From Polyangia bacterium (GTDB lineage Bacteria > Myxococcota_A > Polyangia > Polyangiales > JAUICN01): 64,000 bases of DNA. Positions 5,974-28,272 of this stretch are shown piece after piece. Under the pieces are notes generated by a model, which was given only the letters and a program-made list of their open reading frames with translations, was not told the DNA's origin and made no database searches. The position numbers were made by a program, and so were the translations under genes. The stretch's first letter is position 1; each line of letters starts with the position of its first letter. The stretch lies in the NCBI GenBank assembly GCA_030427835.1, contig JAUICN010000010.1:1-64000 (forward strand), given 5' to 3'.

Positions 5974-7509
5974 ATGACGAAACAGCAGACGACTGGGCGT
6001 GCCATCAAAAAAGTGCTGGTGGCAAACCGTGGCGAGATTGCGGTTCGAATCCTACGAACGCTCCGGGAGATGGGCCTGCAAAGCGTGGCGATCTACAGTG
6101 ACGCCGACCGAAATGCATTGCACGTCCAGCACGCGGACGAGGCCGTGCATGTGGGGCCCACCGCGAGCCGCGAAAGCTACCTTTCCATTGAAAAGGTGTT
6201 GAACGCCTGCAAGCAAACCGGGGCGGACGCGGTGCACCCGGGGTACGGCTTCCTGAGTGAGAACGCTGATTTTGCTCGGGCATGCGCCGGGGCGAACATT
6301 GTATTTATTGGGCCCGAGCCCACGGCCATGGACGTGATGGGGCACAAAACCCGTGCCCGTGAAGCCATGATTGCAGCCGGGGTTCCCGTGGTACCCGGTG
6401 CGCATGTGGAGTCGGTGGAGGAGTTGACCAAAGCCGCCATTGAGGTGGGGTTTCCGATCATGCTGAAGGCAGCAGCGGGCGGTGGCGGTAAGGGTATGCG
6501 GCTCGTCGAGACCCCGGAAGATTTGGAATCGGCCTACAACCGGGCCCAGTCGGAGGCGCTCAATGCCTTTGGCGATGGGCGGGTGTACCTGGAGAAGGCG
6601 GTCATGCAGCCAAGGCACATTGAGATTCAAGTGCTGGGCGATACCCACGGCAACGTGGTGCACCTGTTTGAACGGGACTGCTCCGTGCAACGCCGGCACC
6701 AGAAGGTGGTGGAGGAGACCCCATCGCCTTCCACGCTAGCCACGGAGGCCCTGGTGGAAGAAATGGGGCAAGTGGCCGTGAGGGCGGCCCAGGCAGTGAA
6801 CTACCATTCCACGGGAACTGTAGAGTTTCTATTGGCCCAGGATGGCTCCTACTACTTTCTGGAGATGAACACCCGGCTGCAGGTGGAGCATCCGGTGACG
6901 GAGCTCATCACGGGCATGGACCTCGTAAAGCAGCAGATCCGAGTGGCCCAGGGGGAAACCCTGGGATTTGAACAGAAGGACGTGGTTCGCCAGGGCCATG
7001 CCATTGAGTGCCGGGTCTACGCGGAAGACGTAACCCAGAACTTCATGCCCAGCCCAGGGACGATCACCCAACTGTGTGTTCCTGAGGGGCCGGGAGTCCG
7101 CAACGATTCAGGGATTTACGGAGAAAGTGTGGTCACAAGTGCCTACGACCCCATGCTTTCGAAACTGTGCGTATGGGCGCCGGATCGCCGGGCGGCCTGC
7201 GCTCGTATGGCCCGTGCGCTTTCAGAATACGTCGTGGGAGGCGTCACCACGAACCTACCCTTTCACATGGCGCTGATGAGGCACCCGGGGTTCCTTGAGG
7301 GGGAGTACGATACTGGTTTTATTGCGCGCAATCAGGATTCCCTGCTGACACCACAGGAACCAAGCAAGGAGGAACTGATCTCGCTTGGAGTGGCCGCTGC
7401 CGTGGCCTGTGCAACGAAGGACCGACAACAGGCTGGAAGGTCCAGCGAGCAACCCACCGGTACGCAGATTTCGTCCTGGCGCCGTGCGCGTGCCCTCTGG
7501 CGACATTAG
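5974..7509 (+). CDS. accC: Biotin carboxylase subunit (AccC-type)
   Basis: A 511-residue ATP-grasp enzyme that carboxylates biotin on a carrier protein using ATP and bicarbonate. It begins with the biotin carboxylase fold (KKVLVANRGEIAVRI), has the glycine-rich ATP loop GGGGKGM near residues 168-175, and the catalytic segment 'EMNTRLQVEHPVTE' from about residue 297. The ATG at 5974 fits the family start; an upstream in-frame GTG at 5935 would add 13 residues. Compared with the usual 450 residues it has a tail of about 60 residues ending in 'SSWRRARALWRH', like the link region of propionyl/acyl-CoA carboxylase alpha chains but without a biotinyl domain. No accB or carboxyltransferase gene is nearby, so the acyl-CoA partner is open. 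Confidence 0.93.
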   Translation: MTKQQTTGRAIKKVLVANRGEIAVRILRTLREMGLQSVAIYSDADRNALHVQHADEAVHVGPTASRESYLSIEKVLNACKQTGADAVHPGYGFLSENADFARACAGANIVFIGPEPTAMDVMGHKTRAREAMIAAGVPVVPGAHVESVEELTKAAIEVGFPIMLKAAAGGGGKGMRLVETPEDLESAYNRAQSEALNAFGDGRVYLEKAVMQPRHIEIQVLGDTHGNVVHLFERDCSVQRRHQKVVEETPSPSTLATEALVEEMGQVAVRAAQAVNYHSTGTVEFLLAQDGSYYFLEMNTRLQVEHPVTELITGMDLVKQQIRVAQGETLGFEQKDVVRQGHAIECRVYAEDVTQNFMPSPGTITQLCVPEGPGVRNDSGIYGESVVTSAYDPMLSKLCVWAPDRRAACARMARALSEYVVGGVTTNLPFHMALMRHPGFLEGEYDTGFIARNQDSLLTPQEPSKEELISLGVAAAVACATKDRQQAGRSSEQPTGTQISSWRRARALWRH

Positions 7510-25167: not shown

Positions 25168-25611
25168 ATGGCAACAAAGAAGACCTCCACGAAAGAAGCC
25201 GGGGCAGACAAGGTGGCATTTGTTCCACAGGCCCACGAGGATGCAAAGGTTACCAAGGCGCAGATCAAACTGCTCTACGCAAAGCTTGTGGAAGAGCGGG
25301 ATCGGGTCACCTCGGGTCTTGACCGTCACCTTTCGGAAGCCACTGTGGGCACAGAAGTGCTCACCGAAGAGGTGGATATCGCCCAACGCTCCACGGAGCA
25401 GGCCTACCTGATTCGTTTTGCTGACAAGGAGCGTAAGTTGCTTTTGGAAATCGAGAACGCCCTGGTGAAGTTAAAGGAAGGCGAATACGGTGTATGCGAA
25501 GGGACCGGAGAGCCCATCGCTTACAAGAGGCTGGAGCTTCGCCCCTGGACCCGCTACAGCGTGGCCTACAAGGAGCAGTTGGAAAGAGAACGGGCGCAGC
25601 ACCGCCGCTAG
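25168..25611 (+). CDS. DksA/TraR-family protein lacking the zinc finger cysteines
   Basis: A 147-residue protein of the DksA family, which binds the RNA polymerase secondary channel and modulates transcription with ppGpp. The coiled coil (about 30-105) has the tip as E67-x-x-D70-x-A72, close to the DxxDxA motif. The zinc-finger region 'GVCEGTGEPIAYKRLELRPW' keeps only Cys110; the other three positions are Thr113, Ser131 and Tyr134. It therefore cannot bind zinc in the classical way, like zinc-independent DksA2 proteins. It is divergent from rpsN-rpmB. AAGG lies about seven bases before the ATG. tRNA-Pro follows by 35 bases and may be co-transcribed. Confidence 0.93.
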   Translation: MATKKTSTKEAGADKVAFVPQAHEDAKVTKAQIKLLYAKLVEERDRVTSGLDRHLSEATVGTEVLTEEVDIAQRSTEQAYLIRFADKERKLLLEIENALVKLKEGEYGVCEGTGEPIAYKRLELRPWTRYSVAYKEQLERERAQHRR

Positions 25612-25646: not shown

Positions 25647-25723
25647 CGGGGTGTAGCACAGCCTGGTAGTGCGCAAGCTTTGGGAGCTTGAGGTCGCAGG
25701 TTCGAATCCTGTCGCCCCGACCA
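25647..25723 (+). tRNA. tRNA-Pro(UGG)
   Basis: A 77-base cloverleaf with an encoded CCA. The acceptor stem CGGGGTG/CGCCCCG has one G-U pair. The anticodon stem CAAGC/GCTTG closes the loop TTTGGGA, giving anticodon TGG for proline. The T arm GCAGG-TTCGAAT-CCTGT is standard. No separate promoter was found; it may be read from the dksA-like transcript. Confidence 0.97.
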
Positions 25724-25782: not shown

Positions 25783-25811
25783 TTGACCTGGCGCCTGCCC
25801 ATGCCTAGTTT
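25783..25811 (+). promoter_or_regulatory. Sigma70-type promoter for the ncRNA
   Basis: TTGACC (25783-25788), 17-base spacer, TAGTTT (25806-25811). The -35 matches consensus at five of six positions with ideal spacing; the -10 is weaker. Initiation would fall at about 25817-25819, where the closing stem of the structured RNA begins. Confidence 0.65.
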
Positions 25812-25817
25812 GGTACA

Positions 25818-26040
25818 AGGTACTTCTATTTGATGCGTGAGCGACTTTCATATGAATCCCCGACTTGTTCGAACCCGGGGGCTTTCTCGGATGTGGTGTG
25901 CAGATCCGGCTCGTTTCACCGGAGAGCCTGAAGCATCTGATACCGGCTCCCACCTGCCTATGGCGGGGGTTCGGAAATGTTTAGCCACGATCAAAACGGT
26001 TGTTACCATTGAAGCCAGGCCTTTTGCGCCTGGCTTTACT
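25818..26040 (+). ncRNA. Candidate structured non-coding RNA with own promoter and terminator
   Basis: The segment forms a closed structure. The outer stem is GGTA (25819-25822) with TACC (26004-26007), and TTTGATgCGTG (25829-25839) with CACGATCAAA (25986-25995). Three hairpins lie inside: CCCCG/CGGGG (25858-25880); GGT, CAGAT and GGCTC pairing with GAGCC, ATCTG and ACC (25895-25944); and CCTGCC/GGCGGG (25953-25967). A terminator ends the unit. No coding signal or ribosome site is convincing. The size and long closing stem recall 6S RNA, but the branched inside does not clearly match it, and the tmRNA, RNase P and SRP RNA signatures are absent. Confidence 0.55.
26012..26040 (+). terminator. 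Rho-independent-type terminator of the ncRNA
   Basis: AAGCCAGGC (26012-26020) pairs perfectly with GCCTGGCTT (26028-26036) around a seven-base loop, with a short T-rich tail. No protein gene ends just upstream, supporting a separate RNA transcription unit. Confidence 0.8.
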
Positions 26041-26081
26041 TAATTTGAAAGAGACGTGCTCGCGCAGTCCTGTTCCAACTT

Positions 26082-26146
26082 CGAACCGGTCTGTCGAACC
26101 AATCTAGCGAACCAATCTAGCGAACCAGTCTAGCGAACCGATTTAG
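26082..26146. repeat. 13-bp tandem repeat at a gene end
   Basis: Five 13-base units starting CGAACC, most ending in CTAG (26082-26094, 26095-26107, 26108-26120, 26121-26133, 26134-26146). Units two and three are identical. The last unit contains the TAA stop of the MXAN_5187-type gene on the - strand; the CTAG in the other units would act as further stops. Confidence 0.9.
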
Positions 26147-28272
26147 CGAATGGGGGTGGCCTTGAGGGCGGCACGTCCGTCCTTGATGTACACCTTGAAG
26201 GCCACCTGTGTGGCCCCATGTTGGCGGGTGATGGCCTCTCGGTTCTTCAGGAGAATTCCCTCAAACTTCTGGAATGTGATCCCTTCCGTGGCTTCGCCGC
26301 ACTCCTGCTTGAGCGCCAGAAACTTCTGGTACACCTCGTAGAACCCCTGTTGCTCTTCCGTAAGGGCAGCAATTTGGTTCGGGGTGAGCTTATCGCTATC
26401 GGTCGTGTTTCCAGTGACGGCCACAACTTCTTTGGAAGTGGGTGCCTGGGCCAACATTTGCGTCGCTGCGCGCTTTTTCTTGGAGGGTATTTCCTGCGGC
26501 GTCTGGACATTTGACGCTTGGGCACTTGGTGGCTGGTTCCTAGGTGACTGGGCCGCCATCATTTGGGTTTCCGGACGTTTTTTAGTCGGAGTGCCATCGA
26601 CCTTCAACGTACCGGTTCCCGCCGTTTGAGGGGACTGCTCCCCTGATGGACTTTGTGCGACGCCACCCACAATCGTTGCCGAACCCCGAGCTTGGGCGGC
26701 ACTTGCGAGGGGCGAGGTGGCGGGCGAGGTTGCAGGCGACTGACCGCCGGGGGTTGCCCCCATCATTTGAGTGGAGGCACGCTTACGGGGCGGTGTCGGT
26801 GGGGACGGAATAGGAGCACCTACTGGGGTCGTACCTGCTGGGGTAGCACCTGCTGGGGTAGCGCCTGGAGCAAGCATCGTACTCGAGGTCCCCATGGGCT
26901 CCTTGGGCACACTGCCCATTCCCACCATGGTGCCCTTGGCGGTTGTATCTGCTTTTCGAGGAACACCTGGCATAGGTGCCGTGCCCGGGCCGTTTTCAGG
27001 CAGTTGGGTGGTTGGGGCATCCGCAGCGAACTCAAAAAACTCTCCACCTTCACCCCGATTCTGCTGAAGCAATGCGTCAAGTTGTTCGGGGCTGCTGGCC
27101 ATCCCCTGGCTGGAGAGTTGGCGCACCATGCGATCCATGGCTTGGTTCATTCTCTCCGCCAGGTTGCGGTAGTCGCCGTTGAGCTCGTGTAGGGGGAACC
27201 TTTCCAGTTCACCCTGGGCCACGCTTACCGCAAATGCATCAAACAACTTTGCAGGCTTGCTGTGCTCTTTCCAGACTAGGTAGAGGCCCGACCCAAGCAA
27301 CACCATGCCCACAAGCAACACCAACAACCAAAAAGTCATGGGAACCGCACTTCCTGCTCCCGACGCCAATGCGTTTGCAAAATCACCCAGGGCAGGCATG
27401 GGTTGCGAAAGGGCGTAGACCAAAGGAACCCCCGCTCCATCGCCCTTCAGTGCACCCAACACAACAAGGCTCGCTCCCACGTGTTTTGCCGGTACCTTGG
27501 ATGACGGAGTACCTTTCCCACCGGAGCCCGCTTCGTTTGCGTCCAGTTTGTAAGCGTGGGGATCGCGAGTGAGAGCAAGGATCTCCTGGGCCTCGCTTTC
27601 CGCAAGGGTGTTGCTTTCTGCGGCGCCGAGGCTCTTGCCGTCTGCTGAAAACAACAGCGACGCTCCCCTAAACCTGCTTCCAAGTTTGTTGGCAAACCGT
27701 TCGTCCAAACGGATCCCATGTACAATGGCGCCCACGTACCGGTCCCGTTGCATGACGGGTCGCGCTGCCATGCGGTAGTAGTGGTTATTCCAGGGCCAGA
27801 CGTCATCGCTTACGACGCCCTCCAGGGCCTGGCGAACCAGGGGGAACTCCCCGAGGCCTGCTCCCTCAGGGACGGTCTTCACGCCCATTGCAAAAACAAT
27901 GCTCCCTCGCATGTCCACGAGGAACAGCAATTCACCTGCAAGCTCACCCAGGGCCTGGTTCAAACCGGGGAGGGTTTCGCGCACCTCTTTTTGCGCCGCC
28001 CGTATGGAGCGCTTTCGACGGCTTGCGCCGGGCCCACTCAGGTAAAGCAACTTTCGGACGTGATCGTCTGCAGCCAGGGCCGCGAGGGCTTCTACCCGTG
28101 CTCGGGCATCGGACCGCAGGAGATACTCCAACTCACCCTGATCCCGATAGAGATCATGGAGAGCTTGCTCTGACGATCGGTGTTTGGCCCCACCCGCAAG
28201 GCCAAGAGCAACGCTAAAAGCCACACATGCAACTACCGAAACCAACCCCACCCAAACTCGCGTTAACGTCAT
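26143..28272 (-). CDS. Membrane sensor protein with MXAN_5187-type C-terminal domain
   Basis: A 709-residue protein. A membrane helix at about 5-27, an outside domain of nearly 300 residues (28-320) with Cache-like features ('ELLFLVDMRGSIVFAMGV', 'ARPVMQRDRYVGAIVHG'), and a second helix near 322-342 make a sensor-like N-terminal half. A short HAMP-like segment and some 200 residues rich in Pro, Thr, Ala and Gly follow, including 15-bp in-frame repeats. The final 80 residues ('FYEVYQKFLALKQECGEATEG' region to 'VYIKDGRAALKATPIR') match the C-terminal domain named after MXAN_5187 of Myxococcus. No output enzyme is fused, so it may pass signals through protein contacts. Its ATG overlaps the upstream stop (ATGA). 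Confidence 0.85.
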   Translation of the reverse strand: MTLTRVWVGLVSVVACVAFSVALGLAGGAKHRSSEQALHDLYRDQGELEYLLRSDARARVEALAALAADDHVRKLLYLSGPGASRRKRSIRAAQKEVRETLPGLNQALGELAGELLFLVDMRGSIVFAMGVKTVPEGAGLGEFPLVRQALEGVVSDDVWPWNNHYYRMAARPVMQRDRYVGAIVHGIRLDERFANKLGSRFRGASLLFSADGKSLGAAESNTLAESEAQEILALTRDPHAYKLDANEAGSGGKGTPSSKVPAKHVGASLVVLGALKGDGAGVPLVYALSQPMPALGDFANALASGAGSAVPMTFWLLVLLVGMVLLGSGLYLVWKEHSKPAKLFDAFAVSVAQGELERFPLHELNGDYRNLAERMNQAMDRMVRQLSSQGMASSPEQLDALLQQNRGEGGEFFEFAADAPTTQLPENGPGTAPMPGVPRKADTTAKGTMVGMGSVPKEPMGTSSTMLAPGATPAGATPAGTTPVGAPIPSPPTPPRKRASTQMMGATPGGQSPATSPATSPLASAAQARGSATIVGGVAQSPSGEQSPQTAGTGTLKVDGTPTKKRPETQMMAAQSPRNQPPSAQASNVQTPQEIPSKKKRAATQMLAQAPTSKEVVAVTGNTTDSDKLTPNQIAALTEEQQGFYEVYQKFLALKQECGEATEGITFQKFEGILLKNREAITRQHGATQVAFKVYIKDGRAALKATPIR

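Follow-up and report, generated by a model that had tools for sequence, protein, structure and literature searches.

A diverged 6S RNA gene with its own promoter and terminator signals in a Polyangia bacterium

Results and Discussion

The window analysed here, a stretch of 64,000 nucleotides from the genome of a Polyangia bacterium, almost certainly contains that genome's single 6S RNA (ssrS) gene. Its transcription would start at about 25818-25820, from a promoter belonging to the gene itself, and stop at a hairpin at 26012-26036. The locus belongs to the 6S family, has a conserved structure with covarying pairs, carries promoter and terminator signals, occurs once in this genome and is conserved throughout the order. 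It is an ordinary 6S RNA gene, adding a diverged sequence to a known family.

Assignment to the 6S family

When the whole window was searched with cmscan, Rfam 15 yielded three matches, namely two tRNAs and RF00013 (6S/SsrS). The latter lies at 25820-26006 on the forward strand and scores 58.9 bits, against a curated gathering cut-off of 46.4 bits, with all of the model (positions 1-187 of 187) being covered. Its length of 187 nt and above-cut-off score place the RNA within RF00013, a model that is independent both of the window sequence and of the alignment built here, and that also matches each of the control sequences from E. coli, B. subtilis, Caulobacter and Synechococcus. A lineage covariance model, R1, scores 144.5 bits at the same place, although it includes the window's own sequence. 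The first-pass annotation had proposed just such a search of Rfam with covariance models, and had left the choice between a divergent 6S RNA and a new RNA class; the match upholds the former and disposes of the latter. Its description of the RNA as unannotated reflects a reading of the raw sequence only; a routine Rfam scan picks up RF00013.

The features in common with other 6S RNAs are length, the full-length match, the closing stem, the central bubble with helix P2, the apical arm, the hairpin on the 3' side of the bubble, the single copy, and the possession of promoter and terminator. The differences lie in sequence, which is diverged (58.9 bits with RF00013, and 46-64% identity to the order's other members), and in the neighbours of the window locus, a tRNA-Pro and a DksA-like gene.

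The best-surviving alternative is that the RNA resembles 6S but falls in a different binding class, comparable to the actinobacterial Ms1 RNA, a 6S look-alike that provides the precedent for binding to core RNA polymerase without sigma (PMC9130861). The general rod-with-bubble architecture is common to both. However, Ms1 is a core-polymerase binder of around 300 nt with extra hairpins at its 5' and 3' ends (PMC9130861), whereas the RNA in the window matches its model over 187 nt, like 6S, and spans about 220 nt from start to terminator. The full-length match to RF00013 also speaks against an Ms1-type class, and we regard this alternative as very improbable.

Secondary structure and covariation

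Structure was assessed with an alignment of 29 RF00013-matching sequences from the same order, aligned by sequence alone and having an identity of 57%. The RNAalifold consensus contains 33 pairs, with two-sided changes at 22 of them, and describes the rod of some 160-200 nt (187 nt here) with closing stem, central bubble and apical arm that characterises 6S RNA. In this consensus 93.3% of cells pair, compared to 78.3% in shuffled alignments, none of 500 shuffles reaching the observed figure, and 34-50% in a control in which partners were slid; the relatives having been picked with the 6S model, structure is somewhat favoured in these values, an effect partly offset by the sequence-only alignment. 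The covariation among relatives is strong evidence for a structured RNA, and two-sided changes of the kind that the first-pass annotation proposed to look for are present, although the tRNA-Pro context in which they were to be sought is not common to the relatives. Folding of the single sequence yields z scores, relative to shuffles, of -1.5 for the RNA body alone and -3.3 for the body plus terminator. Since the body barely beats its shuffles, single-sequence folding is weak evidence.

The elements of the fold, all on the forward strand, can be followed from the closing stem inwards. The downstream helix P2 is formed by 25853-25858, the 5' strand adjoining the central bubble, with 25968-25973, and is paired in 92.5% of cells across the 29 sequences. 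On the 5' side of the central bubble, the segment UCGAACC (25869-25875) has an alternative partner in 25968-25974, a pairing present in 77.3% of cells and with two-sided changes at four pairs. The apical arm (25890-25937), with its conserved strands GGUGUGCA ... GAGCCUGAAG, comprises consensus helices 4-6, in which 94-100% of cells are paired and nine of 12 pairs show two-sided changes. Finally, a hairpin on the 3' side of the bubble (CCUGCC-UAU-GGCGGG, 25953-25967) corresponds to consensus helix 7, paired in 91.4% of cells and with two-sided changes at three of its six pairs. Both the apical arm and the CCCACCU...GGGUUC segment agree with the RF00013 consensus.

Taken with the model match, this covariation bears out the structured RNA of about 190 bases noticed at first pass, its extent now being put at about 187 nt (25820-26006, forward strand). 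The accompanying remark that 6S was no obvious match for the interior must be withdrawn, as RF00013 is matched over positions 1-187 and the internal hairpins have their counterparts in the 6S fold. The idea of a novel class of structured RNA with no kinship to 6S had in its favour only that impression of a branched interior; set against the hairpins, the full-length match above cut-off and the matches found in relatives as well, its probability is negligible. A short protein gene or a chance structure is scarcely conceivable, for although a 68-amino-acid open reading frame is present at 25837-26043 and the RNA body by itself surpasses shuffles by only 1.5 standard deviations in folding, the frame has no Pfam match, relatives show no consistent open frame across the locus, as the earlier judgement that there was no good protein frame would have it, and the pair covariation is strong.

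Promoter and terminator

The promoter proposed at first pass consists of a -35 box TTGACC at 25783-25788 and, after a 17-nt spacer, a -10-like box TAGTTT at 25806-25811, both on the forward strand. The latter is a poor box, agreeing with TATAAT at three of six positions, and because of it a generic sigma-70 promoter scan reported nothing at this pair of boxes. Comparison with 28 homologous loci is favourable: 20 of them, including the window locus, have TTGAC at 33-41 nt upstream of the RNA start.

The RNA is followed by an intrinsic terminator hairpin at 26012-26036 (forward strand) having nine perfect pairs and a 7-nt loop, AAGCCAGGC-(7)-GCCTGGCTT. The perfect 9-bp stem was correctly recognised at first pass, and the hairpin is unique in the 64 kb when perfect stems of at least 9 bp with loops of 3-8 nt are considered. 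The U tract that follows it is weak (TACTTAATTT). Of 28 homologous loci, 22 have a terminator-like hairpin, in some cases a weak one, no farther than 60 nt downstream. The recurrence of TTGAC and of downstream hairpins at homologues thus supports the transcription unit despite its poor -10 box.

Copy number and distribution

Both RF00013 and R1 find one 6S copy in this genome of 3.3 Mb (98% complete). At the level of genus and family, searches contained only the window's own genome. Among 56 genomes of the same order, RF00013 matches in 45, the window's genome being counted, while R1, which was built from the 29-sequence alignment with the window's own sequence among its members, finds 6S RNA in all 56 and nearly always as one copy; the two models assign the loci to the same strand. 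The 11 genomes missed by RF00013 under the filters used (G001, G009, G017, G019, G021, G033, G039, G044, G045, G048 and G049) each yielded a 6S RNA to R1. Absences of 6S RNA reported in the order may therefore be annotation gaps. Conservation in the lineage, along with the single copy here, accords with membership of the 6S family. Across the phylum, in a wider sample of 140 genomes with more diverged sequences and under strict filters, R1 matches in 71. Literature searches found nothing specific on 6S RNA in Myxococcus or Sorangium.

Two 6S matches were seen in a few relatives. The two in G010 lie in inverted orientation on a single contig of 11 kb (C83: 4257-4442, reverse strand, and 6681-6866, forward strand) and are either a real duplication or an assembly artefact. 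In G044 the matches are on contigs C58 and C408, and in G031 on C56 and C67, that on C67 being partial.

Predicted mode of action

6S RNA imitates an open promoter and is bound by the sigma-70 holoenzyme. The enzyme is freed once it has copied the 5' bubble strand into a short product RNA, which opens helix P2; a 3'-bubble hairpin aids this release in E. coli, and a bubble-collapse helix does so in B. subtilis and Aquifex (PMC8876501). By homology, the binding partner of the RNA described here would be RNA polymerase with the primary sigma factor, and synthesis of a product RNA would bring about its release. It would fold as a rod whose central bubble resembles a melted promoter and would bind the polymerase mainly as growth slows, holding it away from many promoters. 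On the return of nucleotides the polymerase would transcribe the 5' side of the bubble into a short product RNA, and this synthesis would open P2, leave the 3'-bubble hairpin or else another helix free to form, and release the enzyme. We infer each of these events, from transcription through polymerase binding and product-RNA synthesis to release, from the family to which the RNA belongs. Product-RNA synthesis may begin near U25869, which we take, by position, to be the equivalent of the E. coli start at U44.

A refolding element that would compete with P2, as a hairpin on the 3' side of the bubble or as a bubble-collapse helix, is seen here as pairing potential only. Since the pairings of 25853-25858 and of 25869-25875 are both supported across 29 genomes, strand 25968-25974 can exchange one partner for the other, in keeping with a 6S RNA. 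It is possible, if rather doubtful, that the 6S RNAs of this order combine the two release devices, the 3'-bubble hairpin of E. coli type and the bubble-collapse helix of B. subtilis and Aquifex type.

Genomic context

The tRNA-Pro gene at 25647-25723 lies upstream of the TTGACC box, so that the RNA is indeed downstream of tRNA-Pro at the window locus, as first described. This arrangement does not extend to relatives, no tRNA being detected within 1.5 kb of 6S at any of 29 loci, and the adjacency is therefore local. Neither 6S nor a tRNA was found in the surroundings of the DksA homologues. Both the tRNA-Pro and the DksA-like gene were considered as conserved 6S neighbours and rejected, as neither recurs in relatives. 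In many proteobacteria the usual neighbour of 6S is the gene for 5-formyltetrahydrofolate cyclo-ligase; this gene was not identified among the nearest neighbours of the 6S in the window. Between the 6S terminator and the end of the next gene lies a short tandem array (26082-26150) of 13-bp units (CGAACCAATCTAG, 4.3 copies).

Of the four zinc-finger cysteines, a single one is retained in the DksA/TraR-type protein (PF01258) encoded at 25168-25611 on the forward strand (YGVCEGTGEPI...RYSVAYKEQ). Its homologues carry, with few exceptions, the labels Myxococcota, Polyangiaceae or Sandaracinaceae, which makes a host from the Myxococcota order Polyangiales most likely. The cysteine-poor motif is kept in nearly all of the homologues examined, most of them from Myxococcota. 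Because of this conservation, the proteins look like a real DksA-like subfamily lacking the classical C4 zinc site.
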